A DNA stretch of 37,011 bases from Atopobacter phocae ATCC BAA-285 (GTDB lineage: Bacteria > Bacillota > Bacilli > Lactobacillales > Aerococcaceae): assembly GCF_000526675.1 (NCBI RefSeq), contig NZ_JAGN01000012.1, positions 1 to 37,011 of the forward strand, written 5' to 3'. The notes beneath the pieces are model-generated. The model was not told the DNA's origin. It made no database searches and saw only the letters and a program-made list of their open reading frames with translations. The position numbers and the translations under genes are program-made. Position 1 is the first letter of the stretch, and every line of letters starts with the position of its first letter. Positions 2,231-12,554 of this stretch are shown here, one piece after another.

Positions 2231-3652
2231 ATGAACGAACAAAAAAAAGGAATTAGTAAAACAGGATTGATTGCATTAGTTATCAGTTCGTCACTAGGTA
2301 GTGGAATTTTTGGTTTAACTGGTGATCTTGCTAAGCAAGCTGCACCCGGTCCAGCTATTTTTGCTTGGATTATCGTTAGTTTGGGCATTTTAATGCTCGT
2401 ATTATCATTAAACTATTTAGCTAATAAACGACCTGATTTAGACGGAGGCATGTTCAGTTATGCCGAAGAAACTTTTGGGCGATTAGGTGGATTTATTAGT
2501 GGCTGGGGATACTGGTTATGTTCTTGGTTGGGTAACGTTGCCTTTGCAACAATTATTATGAGTGCTATCGGTCATTTCTTTCCAATATTTGATGGTGGTC
2601 AAAATATCCCTTCTATTTTATTTGGAAGTATCCTTATTTGGACACTAACACTATTAGTTTCAAAAGGAGTAGAATCAGCTAGTTTCGTCAATATTGTAAT
2701 TACGATTTGCAAACTAGTACCATTATTCGTATTCATTATTATCATGATTATTTCCTTCAAAGTAGGTGTATTCACTGAATCATTTTTTGGACAGTTATCA
2801 GAGAATCTTTCAACACATTCATCATTGACTGTGAATGTAATGTTACAAATTAAAAATTCCATTATGATTTTAATGTGGGTATTTGTCGGAATTGAAGGAG
2901 CAAGTATGCTAGCAAACCGCGCTCAAAAGCGTTCTGATGCTCAACAAGCAACAATTATTGGGTTAATTGGGCTAATTTGTATTTATTTATTTGCATCTAT
3001 TTTACCTTACGGTGTTTTCACCCAAGATCAGTTAGCACAAATTGAACAACCAGCAGTTGCTCATATGATGAAGCTCATCGTAGGTAATTGGGGAGCTAAC
3101 TTAATCAATATTGGTTTAATTGTTTCTATTTTAGGAAGTTGGATTTCATGGACTATGTTACCAGCCGAAACAACTTTTTTAATGGCTCGTGATGGTTTAT
3201 TGCCTAAAAAATTTAGTAAATTAAATAAAAATAACGCACCGAGCTATTCATTATTCTTCACAGCAGCATTAACGAATTCTTTCTTACTAACGTTCCTAGT
3301 GACCGATTACGCCTATAAATTGGCTTATTCACTCGCTACAGCTGCTATATTAATTTGTTATTTGATGGTAAGTATTTATCAAATTCAATTTGCTTATGCT
3401 CAAGGTAATAAAAAGCAACTGACAATTGGTATAATAGCTACTTTATTCCAACTCATTGTTATTACATTAGCTGGTTTATCTTATGTTTTAATGTGTAGTA
3501 TTTCTTACATACCTGGTTTTTATTTCTATTACAAAGCAAGAAAAGAAAACGGCTATACCATTACTTCTCGTGAAAAAATAGCCATGACAGTTATTAGCTC
3601 AATTGCTTTACTTGCTATCTTCCTTTTAATAACTGGAGCTATTCATTTTTAA
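2231..3652 (+). CDS. APC-superfamily basic amino acid permease (arginine/ornithine or lysine antiporter type)
   Basis: A 473-residue polytopic permease with about 12 hydrophobic segments. The N-terminal SSSLGSGIFGL motif is the amine/carboxylate-binding loop of TM1 in amino acid-polyamine-organocation transporters. The LDGGMFSYAEETFG and GWGYWLCSWLGN stretches closely resemble the basic amino acid/polyamine antiporter subfamily (ArcD, arginine:ornithine and lysine exchangers). The exact substrate cannot be told from sequence, and no arginine deiminase or decarboxylase genes are adjacent. Start: ATG after AAAAGGAGCAGAC (Shine-Dalgarno AAGGAG). The 237 bases upstream are very AT-rich; I see no convincing -35/-10 pair beyond a TACAAT at 2160. 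The gene is head-on to replication and ends in its own terminator. Confidence 0.85.
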   Translation: MNEQKKGISKTGLIALVISSSLGSGIFGLTGDLAKQAAPGPAIFAWIIVSLGILMLVLSLNYLANKRPDLDGGMFSYAEETFGRLGGFISGWGYWLCSWLGNVAFATIIMSAIGHFFPIFDGGQNIPSILFGSILIWTLTLLVSKGVESASFVNIVITICKLVPLFVFIIIMIISFKVGVFTESFFGQLSENLSTHSSLTVNVMLQIKNSIMILMWVFVGIEGASMLANRAQKRSDAQQATIIGLIGLICIYLFASILPYGVFTQDQLAQIEQPAVAHMMKLIVGNWGANLINIGLIVSILGSWISWTMLPAETTFLMARDGLLPKKFSKLNKNNAPSYSLFFTAALTNSFLLTFLVTDYAYKLAYSLATAAILICYLMVSIYQIQFAYAQGNKKQLTIGIIATLFQLIVITLAGLSYVLMCSISYIPGFYFYYKARKENGYTITSREKIAMTVISSIALLAIFLLITGAIHF

Positions 3653-3802: not shown

Positions 3803-6025
3803 TTATTCTGATTTACGTTTCTTTTGATAGATGTATGCACCTGCACCTACCGCAATTGCAATAATTCCAGCGAAAGCTAATTTACTTTCTCCTGTTTGTG
3901 GTAATGCTTGCGATGATTGAACTGGTGTTTGTTGTACTTTGTGGTTCATAGAAATAATCTTGTTTGAAGCATGTTGTTCAATGACATCTTTTTTAGGTGT
4001 TAATACTTCTGGTTGAATATCTTTTGGTAATGAAATTTCTGGTACGATATCATTATTTGAGTTAGAAGAATCTTGATCAGTTACTTCTGGTTGAGAAATT
4101 TTTGGTACATCAGTACTTGGTGCTGATTCTTTTGAATTTTGCATTGCTAAGAACTCTGCTTCATTCATTTGAATAACACGTTGATACGGAAATACGTCTT
4201 CATATTGCGTTAAATTGATTGTATAGAATGGATTCTCAATTGCTCGCATACGTTGTGACTCTTTTAAAATATCCATTACTACTTGATCAATTGATGGACC
4301 TTCTTCACGTTCGCCACCTAACATGTTGTAACCATCGCCACCGGCTGCTAAGAAGTCATTCGTTGCCATGTAATATGTCCGTTTCAAATCAACTGGTAAG
4401 AATTTTTTAGTTTCGCGATCATAGATTTGAACTTGTAAAACACGTTGACCTGGTTTTGATTCTTCAGGAACAGCATTTGATTTGTTCACATCATAAAATA
4501 CTTTAATTGAACGAGACACTTGTAAGAATCCACCATTCGCTGTTAATTGTACTTTACCTTTTTGATCTAAAACATTCTGTCCATCTTCTGCATGTTCAAC
4601 ATCAGCACGTAATGCATGTTCAAACATTGAGTATACTTGTTCTCCCGTTAAAGCGATTTGCGTAACTAAGTTACCAAATGGATTAACTTTAATTAAGTCA
4701 CCTTTTGTCACTTTTCCTGGTTGAATACTTTCTCGAATTCCTCCACCATTAACCATAGAGAAATCTGTTTTATTCTTAAATCCATCTTGTCCATAAATTA
4801 ATAATGTATCAGTTATAAGATTACCCAAGTTAGTTTCTTTTGAACGAACGTTTTCACGTTTTCCATCAAAGTAGAATTTATTATCATTGATTACAACTTC
4901 AGATGTTGCTTCTTCAAATGTTTTAGATGCTTCTTCAACTATTTGACTCACTTTTTCATCGCGTTTGTAATCTTTGAATGCATCTAGACCTAATAACTCA
5001 GCTTCATAATCTAACTTGCCGTCAACCATTTTACCAGTTACTAAACCAACGTGATTTAAATGCCCGCCTGATTGCACAACTGTTACATGTCCAAATTTTT
5101 GTCCATGTTCAATTGCTGTATGGCTATGTCCGTCAATCACTAACATAGAAGCTTCTGGAAACTGTTCGCTTAATGCGCGAGCTAATTCGTCACCTCTCCA
5201 TTTTGTTGGAGTAGTTGGATCAATCCCTAAGTGCCCAACAAAGATAAATTGATCGACTTTATCTTTTAAGTTTTTGACATTTTCGATAGCTATTGGAATA
5301 GGATCTTTAAATGTCACACCTTCGATATTTTTAGGATGTGTTTTAGTTGCTGTTTCAGGTGTAGTTAATCCGATAATACCGAATCGACGTCCTTTTTTGT
5401 TCACAATTGTATATGGTTCAAATGCTAATTTTTCATTAATAAATGTATTAGCAGATAAAATCGGGAATTTTAATTGCTCTTTATAACTTAGTGCTGTGTC
5501 TAAGCCAAAGTCAAATTCATGGTTCCCAACAGCCATCGCATCGTAGCCAAATTCATTCATTACTCTTGCCATATCTCTACCTTTGTTAATATTAGAAATT
5601 GGCAATCCTTGAAAAGCGTCTCCACCATCTAATAATAAAGTTGGTTTCTTTTGATCAATAAATGTCTTAAGCTGTGCTGTATCAATTGTTCGTTTGTCGC
5701 CTTTTAGACGGCCATGCATATCATTTGTATGAATTATGATGATGTCTTCTTGATTTGCATCTTTGTCTTCTTCTAAAGTTTTTATTGATGAATCAGTTTT
5801 ATCTACTCCATTTAAATCATCAGTTTTATTAGTAATAGAATTCGTTTGATCACTTACTCCATTACTTATTGTTTCAGTCGTTGAAACTGAATTGCTTGTT
5901 TCATCAGCAAAAATATTTGCTGACTCTGAAAATGTGCCTAGGCCCATTAATAAACTAAAGGTTAGAGCAAACGTCAATAGACGTTGTTGGATAGCTTGTA
6001 ATTTATATTGTTTCAAATGCTTCAC
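3803..6025 (-). CDS. LPXTG-anchored cell-surface 5'-nucleotidase / 2',3'-cyclic phosphodiesterase family protein
   Basis: A 740-residue exported enzyme of the UshA/CD73 family that dephosphorylates extracellular nucleotides to nucleosides. A signal peptide occupies about residues 1-41 (basic start, hydrophobic core, ANIFADE). A low-complexity Ser/Thr/Asp linker follows, then the metallophosphatase domain: HTNDMHG (99-105), DGGDAFQG, GNHEFDFG, VGHLG and DGHSHT supply the metal ligands. The C-terminal substrate domain has NGGGIRESI, NPFGN and NDFLAAGGDGY. A Pro/Ser-rich spacer leads to LPQTG (708-712), a hydrophobic helix and KKRK, the sortase sorting signal. Start is GTG at 6025 with GGAAG a few bases upstream. 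It lies 59 bases after pdp with no terminator between, so it is probably co-transcribed. Related surface nucleotidases make adenosine that dampens host immunity; whether this one does is unknown. Confidence 0.92.
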   Translation of the reverse strand: MKHLKQYKLQAIQQRLLTFALTFSLLMGLGTFSESANIFADETSNSVSTTETISNGVSDQTNSITNKTDDLNGVDKTDSSIKTLEEDKDANQEDIIIIHTNDMHGRLKGDKRTIDTAQLKTFIDQKKPTLLLDGGDAFQGLPISNINKGRDMARVMNEFGYDAMAVGNHEFDFGLDTALSYKEQLKFPILSANTFINEKLAFEPYTIVNKKGRRFGIIGLTTPETATKTHPKNIEGVTFKDPIPIAIENVKNLKDKVDQFIFVGHLGIDPTTPTKWRGDELARALSEQFPEASMLVIDGHSHTAIEHGQKFGHVTVVQSGGHLNHVGLVTGKMVDGKLDYEAELLGLDAFKDYKRDEKVSQIVEEASKTFEEATSEVVINDNKFYFDGKRENVRSKETNLGNLITDTLLIYGQDGFKNKTDFSMVNGGGIRESIQPGKVTKGDLIKVNPFGNLVTQIALTGEQVYSMFEHALRADVEHAEDGQNVLDQKGKVQLTANGGFLQVSRSIKVFYDVNKSNAVPEESKPGQRVLQVQIYDRETKKFLPVDLKRTYYMATNDFLAAGGDGYNMLGGEREEGPSIDQVVMDILKESQRMRAIENPFYTINLTQYEDVFPYQRVIQMNEAEFLAMQNSKESAPSTDVPKISQPEVTDQDSSNSNNDIVPEISLPKDIQPEVLTPKKDVIEQHASNKIISMNHKVQQTPVQSSQALPQTGESKLAFAGIIAIAVGAGAYIYQKKRKSE

Positions 6026-8211: not shown

Positions 8212-8246
8212 ATGAAAAACAGACCGGCTAAATAGCCGATCTGTTT
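8212..8246 (-). terminator. Rho-independent terminator of the mnmE-mnmG-rsmG transcript
   Basis: AAACAGACCGGCTA (8217-8230) pairs with TAGCCGATCTGTTT (8233-8246), one mismatch. On the minus strand a T run follows. The hairpin overlaps the rsmG stop codon. Confidence 0.85.
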
Positions 8247-8964
8247 ATTTTAATGGTTGTTTATTTGGTTTACCTGGTTGTCTTGGATATTTTTTAGGCG
8301 TATCTTTCGGTTTACTTATTTGAATTAAATAGCGTTGGCTATCCTCTTCAGGTAATGAAATATCACTAGTTTGTTCCACTTTTCCGCCTAAGAGAGCAAT
8401 GGCGCGTTTCGCTTGTTCAACTTCTTCCAAACCTTTTGCACCTTTCATCGCTAGAAATTGTCCATTTTTTTTCACTAACGGTAGACATAGTTCTGCTAAA
8501 ACATTTAATTGTGCAACTGCACGGGCAGTTACTAAATCAAATTGATTACGATAGGCTTTATTTTGACCAGCTTCTTCGGCACGCGCATGGATAAAATGAC
8601 AGTTAGACAAATTTAATTCGTCTGCGAGATGATTTAAAAAGGTAATTCGTTTATTTAACGAATCAATGATTGAAACGTTTAAATGTGGAAAGACAATTTT
8701 TAATGGCATACTTGGAAATCCAGCACCACTTCCAACATCACATAATGTTTCAATTGTCGTTAAATCAACTGCCTGAAGTAATGTTAGTGAATCATAAAAA
8801 TGTTTTTCATAAACTTCATCACGTGCTGTGATAGCAGTTAAATTCATTTTTTGATTCCACTCGACAAGTAATTCAAAATAACGTTCAAATTGATTCATTT
8901 GCTCGTCGGATAAAATTATATTAAATTGTTTCTCTACTTGCTCTTTAAAATCTGCGGGTGTCAT
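8245..8964 (-). CDS. rsmG: 16S rRNA (guanine-527 N7) methyltransferase
   Basis: A 239-residue class I SAM-dependent methyltransferase that modifies G527 of 16S rRNA in the 530 loop. The SAM-binding loop is DVGSGAGFPS (76-85). NLTAI near residue 41 and HFYDSL upstream are family landmarks, and VTARAVAQLNVLAELC is the conserved core helix. A basic tail (KPKDTPKKYPRQPGKPNK) is as in other Gram-positive RsmG proteins. It starts 11 bases after mnmG and is the last gene of the operon. In this family loss of function gives low-level streptomycin resistance. Confidence 0.95.
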   Translation of the reverse strand: MTPADFKEQVEKQFNIILSDEQMNQFERYFELLVEWNQKMNLTAITARDEVYEKHFYDSLTLLQAVDLTTIETLCDVGSGAGFPSMPLKIVFPHLNVSIIDSLNKRITFLNHLADELNLSNCHFIHARAEEAGQNKAYRNQFDLVTARAVAQLNVLAELCLPLVKKNGQFLAMKGAKGLEEVEQAKRAIALLGGKVEQTSDISLPEEDSQRYLIQISKPKDTPKKYPRQPGKPNKQPLK

Positions 8965-8975
8965 ATCCTGTCTCC

Positions 8976-10886
8976 TTATTCATTCGATTGAGCCGGTTGC
9001 TTTGGAAATTGGCCTTGTTCTAAGTATATCATTAAAACAGATATATCGGCAGGGTTTACACCAGATACTCGACTAGCTTGCGCTAAAGTTTCTGGTCGGA
9101 TTTGCTCAAGACGTTGGCGTGCCTCCATCGCCAAGGTTTCGATTTTCATATAATCAATACCATCAGGAATTCTTCGCTCTTCCATTCGACGTTGTTTTTC
9201 AACTCGTTCAATAGCTTTCTTGATATAACCTTCGTATTTTATTTCCGTTTCAACTTGCTCAATAACATCTTCTGGTAAAGTTTCATCATGTGGTGCAAAT
9301 GAAATTAAATCGTTGTAATGAATTTCTGGTCGTTTCAATAAATCACTAAATAATATACCATCTTTTAAAGGTGCAGAATCAATTGATTCAAGGAATTTTT
9401 GCAATTCCATAGTTGGTTTTAGACGAGTTTTACGAATACGTTTCAGTTCTGCTTTGATTGTTTCATGTTTTTTCTTAAAACGTTCATAGTCTTCTTCAGT
9501 TACTAATCCGATTGATCGACCAATTTCTGTTAAACGTAAATCAGCATTATCATGACGTAAAAGTAAACGGAACTCCGCTCGACTTGTTAGTAAACGATAC
9601 GGTTCAGTTGTTCCCTTAGTTACCAAATCGTCAATCATGACACCAATATATCCTTCACTTCTTTGCAGAACTAATGGTTCTTTATTATCAACTGCTAAGG
9701 CTGCATTAATACCAGCTATTAAACCTTGCCCTGCAGCTTCTTCATAACCACTAGTTCCATTCATTTGCCCAGCTGTAAATAAATTATTAATTAGTTTCGT
9801 TTCCAAACTTGGTTTTAATTGATATGGGATGACCACGTCATATTCAATCGCATACCCTGGACGCATCATTTTTGCTTGTTCCATTCCCTTGACACTGTGA
9901 ACCATTTCTATTTGAACATCTTCTGGTAAAGAAGTTGATAGACCTTGTACATACATTTCATCTGTATGTTCGCCTTCTGGTTCTAAAAAGATTTGATGAC
10001 GAGGTTTGTCACTAAAACGAACAATCTTATCTTCGATTGATGGACAATAACGCGCTCCTACGCCTTCAACAATCCCAGTAAACATTGGTGCACGATCTAA
10101 GTTTTGACGAATCACATGATGAGTCGTTTCATTGGTAAATGTTAACCAACAAGGAATTTGATTTAAACGATATGTTGCTAAATCAGAACTAAAACTAAAC
10201 AATGACGGTTTGTCATCACCTGGTTGCTCTTCCATCACTGAGTAGTCAACTGTTTTTCCGTGTACACGCATTGGTGTTCCCGTTTTAAAACGTGCCAATT
10301 CAAATCCATGCTCTAATAAATTTTCAGATAACTTAATACTTGGTTGTGTGTTGTTCGGTCCGGCTGAATACTTCAATTCACCAATAATGATTTTACCTCG
10401 ACTACTTGTCCCCGCCGTCAACACTACAGATTTGGCACGATAAGTAGCTCCTGTACTAGTAATAACACCTTGACATGTGCCATTTTCAACAATTAGTTCG
10501 TCAACTGTTCCTTGTTTTAAGTCTAAATGCTCTGTTCTTTCTAGTGTTACTTTCATTTCATGGGCATACATCGCTTTATCTGCTTGTGCTCTTAATGCAC
10601 GTACAGCTGGCCCTTTTCCGGTATTCAACATCCGCATTTGAATGTAGGTTTTATCGATATTCTTACCCATTTGTCCACCCAGTGCATCAATTTCTCGAAC
10701 AACTACTCCTTTAGCTGGTCCACCAATTGAAGGGTTACACGGCATAAAAGCTACCATTTCTAAATTCATCGTTAATAATAATGTTGATTTACCCATACGT
10801 GCACTCGCTAAAGCTGCTTCACTTCCAGCGTGTCCAGCCCCAACGACAATTACATCATATGTTCCTGCTTCAAATTTTTGACTCAT
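8976..10886 (-). CDS. mnmG: tRNA uridine-34 5-carboxymethylaminomethyl modification enzyme MnmG (GidA)
   Basis: A 636-residue FAD-dependent enzyme that with MnmE builds the cmnm5U modification at the wobble uridine of several tRNAs. The dinucleotide-binding motif [19 protein letters not shown] is at residues 14-32. [22 protein letters not shown] holds a conserved cysteine, and the second family signature [16 protein letters not shown]-like stretch follows at about residue 89. The C-terminal helical domain that binds MnmE is complete (ends around [18 protein letters not shown]). It lies 31 bases downstream of mnmE with Shine-Dalgarno AGGAAGG. Position and length are typical for the family. Confidence 0.96.
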
Positions 10887-10917: not shown

Positions 10918-12309
10918 TTATTTTCCTAAACAAAATTGACTAAATAATTGTGTTAATAATTCATCTGGAGCAGCATCTCCTGTGATTTCACCTAATAAAT
11001 CCCAACAGCGAGTCAAATCGATTTGGATTAAATCAATTCCTACACTCATTTCAACACCTGCTAAAACATCGTCTAAGGCTTTATTAGCTTCTTTCAACAG
11101 ATTAATATGACGTGCATTAGATAAATAAGTAACATCTCTTTCTTGTACTTGACCACTCATAAATAATTCAGAAATAGCTTGCTCTAATGCTTCAATTCCC
11201 ATCTGCGTTAGCATTGATGTTTGAATTAAATGATCAGTTTCATTCAAAAATGAATCTAATTGCTTTTGATCAAGTACTCGCGGTAAATCAGTTTTATTTA
11301 ATATAATGATTCTTTTTTTATGACGTGTACGTTCTAGTAATTCCTGATCTTGTTCCGTTAATGTTTCGGATTGATTTAACAATAAAAGAACTAAATCACT
11401 TTGATCAATTGCTTTTTGACTTCGTTCCACTCCTATTTGTTCAACGATATCTGTCGTTTCACGAATACCTGCCGTATCAATTAATTTAAGTGGAATACCA
11501 TTAATTGTAATCGTTTCTTCAATTGTATCACGAGTTGTTCCAGCGATATCTGTAACAATTGCTTTATCTTCTTGTAGTAAAACATTTAACAAACTCGATT
11601 TTCCAACATTCGGTCGACCAACAATCGCTGTTTCTATTCCTTCACGTAAAATTTTTCCTTGTTTAGATTGCTGTAATAAACGAGTAATTTTTTTCTTTAA
11701 TGATTCAGCTGTTTGCGCTACAACTTCTAACGTCATTTCTTCGGCTTCATCATATTCTGGATAATCGATTGTCACTTCAATTTGAGCCAATGCTGTTAAC
11801 ATTTCTTGGCGCAATTCACGAATTTTATTAGACAGTTTACCTTCTAACTGTCCCATCGCTAAATCCATCGCACGATCACTTTTCGCACGTACTAAGTCCA
11901 TCACTGCTTCTGCCTGTGACAAATCAATTCGGCCATTTAAAAATGCACGTTTTGTAAATTCACCTGGCTCGGCCAAACGAGCTCCTTGCTCTAATGCTAA
12001 TTCCAAAATACGATTAACTGCTACGATTCCACCATGACAGTTAATTTCAATAACATCTTCTCGTGTGAATGTTCTTGGTGCACGCATAACACTAACCATC
12101 ACTTCATCCACTACTGTCCCAGCTTTTCGGTCTATTACATGTCCATAATTAATTGTATGCGAATCAACCGTACTAATTGTTTTCTTGCCCATCAAATCAA
12201 CTAACTTTTCAGCGATTGTAACAGCCTCTTCACCACTCAAGCGAACGATTCCGATCGCACCTTCACCTAAAGCGGTTGATATTGCCGCAATTGTATCAAA
12301 TTGAAACAT
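10918..12309 (-). CDS. mnmE: tRNA uridine-5-carboxymethylaminomethyl synthesis GTPase MnmE (TrmE)
   Basis: A 463-residue GTPase and partner of MnmG. The N-terminal tetrahydrofolate-binding domain (1 to about 120) is followed by helices. The inserted G domain has G1 GRPNVGKSS (231-239), DTAGIRE (G3) and NKTD (G4). The protein ends FCLGK, the conserved CxGK tail whose cysteine is needed for the modification. ATG at 12309 follows a purine-rich AAAGGAGAG. It heads the mnmE-mnmG-rsmG operon. In relatives mnmE commonly lies near jag; here it is separated from it by lctP and treBCR and has its own promoter and a terminator-like leader. Confidence 0.96.
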
Positions 12310-12364
12310 GAGTCTCTCCTTTCAATCCATTCATTAAATATCTCCATCGTTTTCTTATCTCCAC

Positions 12365-12408
12365 AAAAAAAGTGCATACCTCTCCCTTGTTCAGGTGGTA
12401 CACACTTT
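12365..12408 (-). terminator. Terminator-like hairpin inside the mnmE leader (candidate attenuator)
   Basis: On the minus strand AAAGTGTGTACC pairs with GGTATGCACTTT over 12 bases with no mismatch (two G-U wobbles) around a 16-base loop, and seven T follow. This is a canonical intrinsic terminator, yet it lies between the predicted mnmE promoter and the mnmE start, 55 bases before the ATG. The treR transcript has its own terminator further upstream (12541-12504), so this second one would act on mnmE. No known riboswitch consensus was recognised. Confidence 0.65.
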
Positions 12409-12433
12409 GACTGTGAACGACTTTCGTATCTAA

Positions 12434-12461
12434 ATTATAATTGAAAACCATCAAAATGCAA
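12434..12461 (-). promoter_or_regulatory. Sigma-A promoter of mnmE
   Basis: On the minus strand TTGCAT (12461-12456), a 16-base spacer and TATAAT (12439-12434). Predicted start near 12427, giving a leader of about 118 bases before mnmE that contains the hairpin at 12408-12365. Confidence 0.6.
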
Positions 12462-12503
12462 CTATTTTAAATTGCTTTTTCATATTAAAGATGATTAAAT
12501 CAT

Positions 12504-12541: not shown

Positions 12542-12554
12542 TGCAAATTTATTA

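Follow-up and report, generated by a model that had tools for sequence, protein, structure and literature searches.

To our knowledge, T-boxes are the only established RNA class in which binding of a specific tRNA regulates a gene. Kissing between fully complementary 7-nt loops is well known from plasmid RNA I and RNA II. In T-box leaders, as described in parts of a review, the Stem I specifier pairs with anticodon bases 34 to 36 and the UGGN of the antiterminator bulge pairs with the 3′-NCCA end of the tRNA; whether RNA switches recognize tRNA modifications is posed there as an open question (PMC7583486). In a viral case, according to portions of another paper, the A-rich loop of HIV-1 pairs with the anticodon loop of tRNA-Lys3, which is modified at U34, and thiolation of U34 stabilizes this loop-loop contact (PMC3185550).

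The leader described here lies ahead of mnmE in a 37,011-nucleotide stretch of the Atopobacter phocae ATCC BAA-285 genome, the whole of which is referred to as the window. It is like transcriptional T-boxes, as the same parts of the review present them, in having a leader terminator, a codon-like sequence that would meet the anticodon of one tRNA, and mutually exclusive terminator and antiterminator folds (PMC7583486). It is unlike them in that it would control a tRNA-modifying enzyme, whereas T-boxes are portrayed in those parts as controlling amino acid metabolism (PMC7583486), and in that it is only about 65 nt long in the window, with a 7-nt loop-loop match in place of a three-base specifier. 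No report of such an mnmE leader was found in the literature, including PMC2965389, PMC2864571, and PMC11109978; Term-seq tables may hold the 3′ end. Because the logic is T-box-like but the Rfam searches, the seven-base match, the size, the controlled gene, and the lack of a report all set it apart, we rate the mnmE leader as a candidate new kind of tRNA-reading leader. If this is true, it would be a second and much smaller design for tRNA sensing, and such sensing would have arisen more than once and would need little RNA.

The leader upstream of mnmE in the window

The sequence-only reading of this DNA had proposed a promoter followed by a stem with a T run before mnmE, and both are present on the minus strand between 12461 and 12365. 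The presumed mnmE promoter consists of a −35 box, TTGCAT (12456 to 12461), with 3 of 6 bases as in the consensus TTGACA, a 16-nt spacer, and a −10 box, TATAAT (12434 to 12439), which put the predicted start near 12427. The promoter was not listed by the scanner because 4 of 6 bases are needed at −35, and the terminator was not listed because the loops allowed were 3 to 8 nt only. Counts of the −10 box across leaders lend limited support because box positions vary; at least 5 of 6 bases of TATAAT were present in 169 of 201 leaders versus 152 of 201 in one shuffle, and the exact box was present in 64 leaders versus 30 in the shuffle.

The terminator stem is formed by the 5′ arm AAAGTGTGTACC (12397 to 12408) and the 3′ arm GGTATGCACTTT (12369 to 12380), with 12 pairs, two of which are G-U, around a 16-nt loop (12381 to 12396). 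The run of seven T (12365 to 12371) has three T within the stem. A short candidate antiterminator hairpin can form from the 5′ strand CACA (12412 to 12415) and the 3′ strand UGUG (12401 to 12404) around the 7-nt loop GUCAAAG (12405 to 12411), and its loop and 3′ strand overlap the 5′ arm of the terminator. For the 129-nt leader, the folding energy is −32.6 kcal/mol compared to −22.4 kcal/mol (standard deviation, 2.8) for shuffled sequences (z = −3.58; 0 of 200 shuffles as good). The hairpin alone accounts for −1.5 kcal/mol and the terminator part for −16.7 kcal/mol.

Downstream on the same strand are mnmE (10918 to 12309; 463 amino acids), which is presumed to be the first gene of an operon, mnmG (8976 to 10886; 636 amino acids), which encodes the partner subunit, and the presumed third gene, an rsmG-like gene named by reading (8245 to 8964). 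The minus strand also encodes, at 3803 to 6025, a large secreted protein resembling 5′-nucleotidases, likewise named by reading, that has an LPQTG motif close to its end.

Together, the stem and the T tract have the features of a good intrinsic terminator, which could simply guard against read-through from upstream genes. However, the upstream tre genes have a separate terminator of their own at 12542 to 12514, as had been noticed from the letters, the presumed mnmE promoter precedes the hairpin, and conserved loop bases lie outside the stem. A plain terminator is thus scarcely credible.

Rfam gave no match to the window at the gathering score, in line with the earlier failure to recognize a known riboswitch or T-box, and none of the matches obtained for the window was to RF02634 (EF3314_EF3315). 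A search of 12300 to 12480 returned only chance-like matches (E values, 3.5 to 6.1), with no T-box at an E value of ≤10. There was no T-box match at an E value of ≤1 in the loci of ten relatives, and no Rfam model fits the leaders of these relatives.

Conservation and mutually exclusive folds

A search with the leader DNA returned 29 foreign loci, and mnmE adjoined the match in 8. Named mnmE loci (401) were also fetched by protein, and the best 80 were examined, with membership in the Lactobacillales assigned by record title. The motif A-GU[C/G]AA[A/G]G-UG was present within 300 nt upstream of mnmE in 16/16 Lactobacillales loci and in 0/64 other loci among these best 80 of 401. In this pattern, G was admitted beside A at the sixth loop base once it had been seen in 2 of the 16 named loci (GUCAAGG at L073:2902-2908 and GUGAAGG at L109:2865-2871); this G still pairs with U33 as G-U, at −6.2 kcal/mol. 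Named carriers include Ligilactobacillus salivarius (L079) and a Latilactobacillus (L068), whereas the leader was absent from the Bacillus loci read. The leader is conserved before mnmE in Lactobacillales and is not local to the window genome, which speaks against the earlier suggestion that the operon gained its own control in this genome.

A covariance model (R1) built from 17 leaders, all of the GUCAAAG type, matched 71 of the 76 genomes of the family and 269 of 395 Lactobacillales genomes, a set with which the family set overlaps, mostly with one match per genome. No genome of the family coded f4 was among the 269 positive genomes in the 395 searched. Among the first 55 R1 loci that were checked, 54 were located before mnmE and 1 (L136, in G005) before mnmG. 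The mnmG gene has its own leader copy, on the minus strand, in G005 (L136) and G015 (L191), and G015 has one copy each before mnmE and mnmG. The element therefore goes with the MnmE-MnmG enzyme. The distance from the CTTTTT end to the extrapolated gene start was 23 to 77 nt in the 54 mnmE loci and 23 to 349 nt over the 207 leaders read.

These leaders (205 mnmE and 2 mnmG, from 206 genomes) were obtained from 219 loci and represent the better-scoring R1 matches; 12 loci gave none. Five of the 12 (L190, L194, L196, L197, and L199) are weak second R1 matches whose fetched sequence contained neither mnmE nor mnmG, and they were rejected as likely chance. L205 was dropped for a misplaced mnmE start, with a GUGAAAG loop visible by eye, L241 because mnmE was present but the motif was absent within 450 nt, and L245, L253, L261, L264, and L269 because the mnmE or mnmG start was not found. 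GTGAAAG is visible by eye, on one strand or the other, in L245 and L253.

In these leaders the terminator pairs AAAGUGY with RGCACUUU beside the T run. The upstream hairpin has an A-U pair closing the 7-nt loop and mostly 2 to 8 further pairs, with one leader having the closing pair only, and the AAAGUGY forming the 5′ arm of the terminator is also part of the hairpin loop and 3′ strand. The two folds are mutually exclusive; in 156 distinct leaders, hairpin pairs 1 to 3 were standard in 99 to 100% and terminator pairs 1 to 7 in 92 to 100%. A terminator together with a mutually exclusive alternative fold is what characterizes an attenuator with an intrinsic terminator, and both are found in the leader sequence. 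Stem and T tract proved to be conserved when close relatives were compared, which leaves unrefuted the sequence-only reading of an uncharacterized cis-regulatory attenuator before mnmE; that reading is further supported by conservation in Lactobacillales and by the absence of an Rfam match at the gathering score. Of the two places it had offered for a sensor, the 16-base terminator loop, which varies in sequence and length between species, is the less likely and the 5′ segment the more likely, with the 7-nt hairpin loop as the probable sensor. The CACA/TGTG alternative that it had considered weak (12415 to 12412 with 12404 to 12401) is present and turned out to be the conserved part.

Covariation was observed at hairpin pair 3, which is G-C in 138, A-U in 16, G-U in 1, and A-A in 1 of the 156 distinct leaders, and none of 500 shuffles paired as well. 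When Y is U, the terminator pair is mostly G-U, and the double change at pair 3 therefore serves the hairpin. Pair 4 was standard in 71% of these leaders (0/500 shuffles as good), and pairs 6 to 9 in 46 to 69%; pair 5, standard in 46%, was no better than shuffled (362/500 shuffles as good).

The loop is GUCAAAG in 180 and GUGAAAG in 27 of the 207 leaders. From the closing A to the closing U, 8 of 9 positions were identical in all 201 distinct leaders, and the exception, the third loop base, was C in 174 and G in 27, whereas beyond the first three stem pairs the columns had 0.0 to 0.7 bits. Part of this loop invariance reflects selection at the reading step, which tolerated up to two changes from AGTNAAAGTG; 206 of the 207 leaders had none. 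Because the terminator stem does not include the first three bases of the loop, the terminator does not explain their conservation.

Hairpins of 8 to 9 bp (median, −7.3 kcal/mol) were present in 27 of the 207 leaders. These could form without tRNA and could need a competitor; CTTATC, which could pair with the 5′ strand of the hairpin, is found upstream in 13 of the 27. The terminator part scored no better than the hairpin alone in 15 of the 207 leaders.

A short terminated leader might instead function as a small RNA acting in trans on the anticodon loops of tRNA-Gln and tRNA-Glu, with control of mnmE being secondary. RF02634 represents EF3314_EF3315, a small RNA that is abundant in Enterococcus faecalis, and it has a match in L036 (69 bits; gathering score, 100) that carries GTAGTCAAAGC in a 5′ setting as in some mnmE leaders, and deletion of EF3314_EF3315, according to parts of the study, suggested a role in the turnover of abundant proteins, especially those of the translation apparatus (PMC3166299). 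However, the element stays before mnmE or mnmG, and bases shared by hairpin and terminator would be needless for a trans-acting RNA, which makes this function very improbable. The L036 match (positions 2247 to 2379, plus strand) is located approximately 600 nt before mnmE and holds GATAAAGTAGTCAAAG. It has the same ATCATTCTTATC...GATAAAGTAGTCAAAG as the mnmE leader of L039 and, slightly changed, that of L243, but unlike them it does not directly precede mnmE, it has an ordinary terminator, and C follows GUCAAAG, with loss of the closing A-U pair. It may be a decoupled leader copy that still shows the loop for tRNA-Gln. RF02634 was rejected as the parent family of the mnmE leaders; its matches were weak, in 9 of the 76 family genomes, with none above the cutoff and none in G000 (E ≤ 0.1).

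Complementarity to tRNA anticodon loops and a proposed mechanism

Thirteen tRNA genes were found in the draft genome from which the window comes, including one for tRNA-Gln(UUG) with the anticodon loop CUUUGAC, of which the leader loop GUCAAAG is the exact reverse complement. The genomes G000 and G042, which are related, yielded 44 distinct tRNA sequences, of which only those of tRNA-Gln(UUG) matched at 7/7 positions (duplex, −6.5 kcal/mol; next best, −2.3 kcal/mol). The other loop, GUGAAAG, which is found in G074 and G075, is the exact complement of CUUUCAC, the anticodon loop of tRNA-Glu(UUC), and this duplex was also at −6.5 kcal/mol (next best of the tRNAs read in G074, −3.2 kcal/mol). The tRNA sets compared are those in the fetched loci rather than complete sets. 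Two fully complementary loops, as expected of a kissing pair, are present for tRNA-Gln(UUG) in G000 and G042 and for tRNA-Glu(UUC) in G074. The 7-nt complementary loops are like those of RNA I and RNA II, but the partner there is an antisense RNA and the partner proposed here is a tRNA. The two bases seen at the third loop position, C and G, each fit one tRNA exactly, and A or U would fit no anticodon loop read in G000, G042, and G074. This C/G alternation provides a natural specificity swap.

MnmEG substrates listed in the consulted part of one source are tRNAs for Arg, Gln, Glu, Gly, Leu, and Lys (PMC9626948), and both matched tRNAs, tRNA-Gln(UUG) and tRNA-Glu(UUC), are among them.

From the element, its conservation, its position ahead of mnmE or mnmG, the bases shared by its two folds, its complementarity, and its alternation between two tRNAs, we infer physical binding of tRNA, antitermination, and a biological signal. 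The leader is probably a tRNA-responsive transcription attenuator ahead of mnmE. RNA polymerase would start approximately 12 nt before the short hairpin with the loop GUCAAAG, or GUGAAAG in other lineages, and the anticodon loop of tRNA-Gln(UUG) or tRNA-Glu(UUC) would kiss the hairpin loop over 7 bp. The kiss would occupy AAAG and steady UGY, making AAAGUGY unavailable as the 5′ arm of the terminator, and with the terminator blocked beside the T run transcription would proceed into mnmE-mnmG-rsmG. Without tRNA, the hairpin would be too weak in most species, and the terminator would form and stop transcription. The tRNAs read would be substrates of the enzyme made, which would tie mnmE output to its own substrate pool. 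Either the level of free substrate tRNA or the state of its wobble U34, accessible or under-modified, might be the signal.

It is possible, but we hold it only tentatively, that the leader represents a new riboswitch class that reads tRNA, is widespread in Lactobacillales, and senses U34 modification of tRNA-Gln and tRNA-Glu through the anticodon loop, so that the enzyme pair would be switched by the modification state of its own substrate tRNA. The viral contact, in which U34 thiolation is stabilizing, suggests that modified tRNA might bind better, which fits simple negative feedback badly; such feedback would need under-modified tRNA to be favored, the reverse of the viral case. The HIV-1 loop also differs in serving the priming of reverse transcription, whereas the role proposed for the mnmE leader is control of a terminator. 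The mnmE leader would give a handle on the question of modification recognition, as the modification is made by the product of the controlled gene and the base that carries it is among those covered by the loop.

The loop also invites comparison with a T-box specifier, as CAA or GAA lies inside the seven complementary bases. If the leader were a reduced T-box with an additional contact to the tRNA 3′ end, the Gln (CAA) or Glu (GAA) codon would be presented for pairing with the anticodon, with read-through as the likely result. UGG, which forms the core of the T-box bulge, is present between the hairpin and the T run in 169 of the 207 leaders. Such an arrangement is nevertheless quite unlikely, given that UGG is absent from the window leader (12430 to 12365) and 37 others, that where present it is mostly in the inner arm that pairs inside the terminator and is mostly followed by A or G, that the loop match extends over seven bases rather than three, and that Rfam gave no T-box match. 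There may be a second tRNA contact at UGG within the terminator inner arm. A second contact via the 3′ strand AAGGGGUGGAGUGGGC was rejected, as the full string was not conserved by eye (window and L266). Ribosome-mediated attenuation at the CAA or GAA codon was also rejected, as there is no in-frame start codon from the predicted start to the loop in the window.

Natural variation of leader and tRNA-Gln loops

Lactobacillales lineages differ in the anticodon loop of tRNA-Gln(UUG); several have UUUUGAU, and others have CUUUGAC. A search for CUUUGAC within a tRNA context was positive in 294 of 395 genomes, and a reversed control pattern had 0 matches among the rows listed. A second tRNA pattern was run on 40 chosen genomes and gave the UUUUGAU readings, which include those of G080, G122, G213, G243, G294, G317, and G335. 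The leader loop was GUGAAAG in all nine genomes for which a UUUUGAU tRNA-Gln and a leader were read (G195, G099, G188, G125, G306, G341, G094, G101, and G143). A Glu-type leader was predicted beforehand for 11 genomes, and 110 further leader regions were fetched after the prediction. Six of the 11 leaders were read (G195, G099, G188, G125, G306, and G341), and 6/6 were GUGAAAG; the other five went unread. The leaders of the remaining three of the nine genomes (G094, G101, and G143) had already been seen before the prediction. Within one genus (g38), G307, G333, and G369 have CUUUGAC with a GUCAAAG leader, G195, G099, and G188 have UUUUGAU with a GUGAAAG leader, and G357 and G363 have CUUUGAC with a GUGAAAG leader.

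Counted by genome, CUUUGAC was present in 169 and absent in 8 genomes with GUCAAAG leaders and was present in 7 and absent in 20 with GUGAAAG leaders, with two genomes (G009 and G034, outside the 395) unsearched. Fisher's test gave 9e-16 on 203 mnmE rows, a value that is uncorrected for descent and is inflated because the genomes are not independent by descent. For a strict table, rows in which no tRNA-Gln had been read directly (18 of 203) were removed. The leader loop changes at least 10 times on an MnmE fragment tree, with only three independent pairs on well-supported branches. The tRNA-Gln difference in these pairs was, on average, in the same direction in 1.2, in the opposite direction in 0.0, and absent in 1.8, and the phylogenetic sign test, which cannot reach significance with three pairs, was not significant.

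Among the eight GUCAAAG genomes without a CUUUGAC match, G054 has CUUUGAC with another spacing, as detected by the second pattern. The second pattern found no tRNA-Gln of either kind in G036, G057, G134, G159, and G301, and G147 and G359 were searched with the first pattern only. The seven GUGAAAG genomes with CUUUGAC are not in conflict with tRNA reading because tRNA-Glu may serve there; tRNA-Glu with CUUUCAC was found in 16/16 GUGAAAG genomes examined (16 of 27) and also in G074.

Attenuators that have a short conserved hairpin and are read by a protein are common, and the hairpin and loop might be bound by MnmE, MnmG, or another RNA-binding protein, with the match to tRNA being coincidental. 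There is usually a single copy per genome, placed ahead of the gene for the enzyme itself, which would suit such autoregulation. However, a tRNA mimic should resemble the anticodon loop, and the leader loop is its complement. Furthermore, the variable third position is only C or G, both of which match substrate tRNAs, and the choice follows the tRNA-Gln loop. We consider reading by a protein unlikely.

If tRNA is read, a loop fully complementary to UUUUGAU would pair at only −3.3 kcal/mol compared to −6.5 kcal/mol for tRNA-Glu, and the weakness of this duplex may be the reason for the shift of the leader to tRNA-Glu. In G078, a genome of the coded family f4 without the leader, the tRNA-Glu anticodon loop is UUUUCAC, compared to CUUUCAC in the leader-bearing genomes read.
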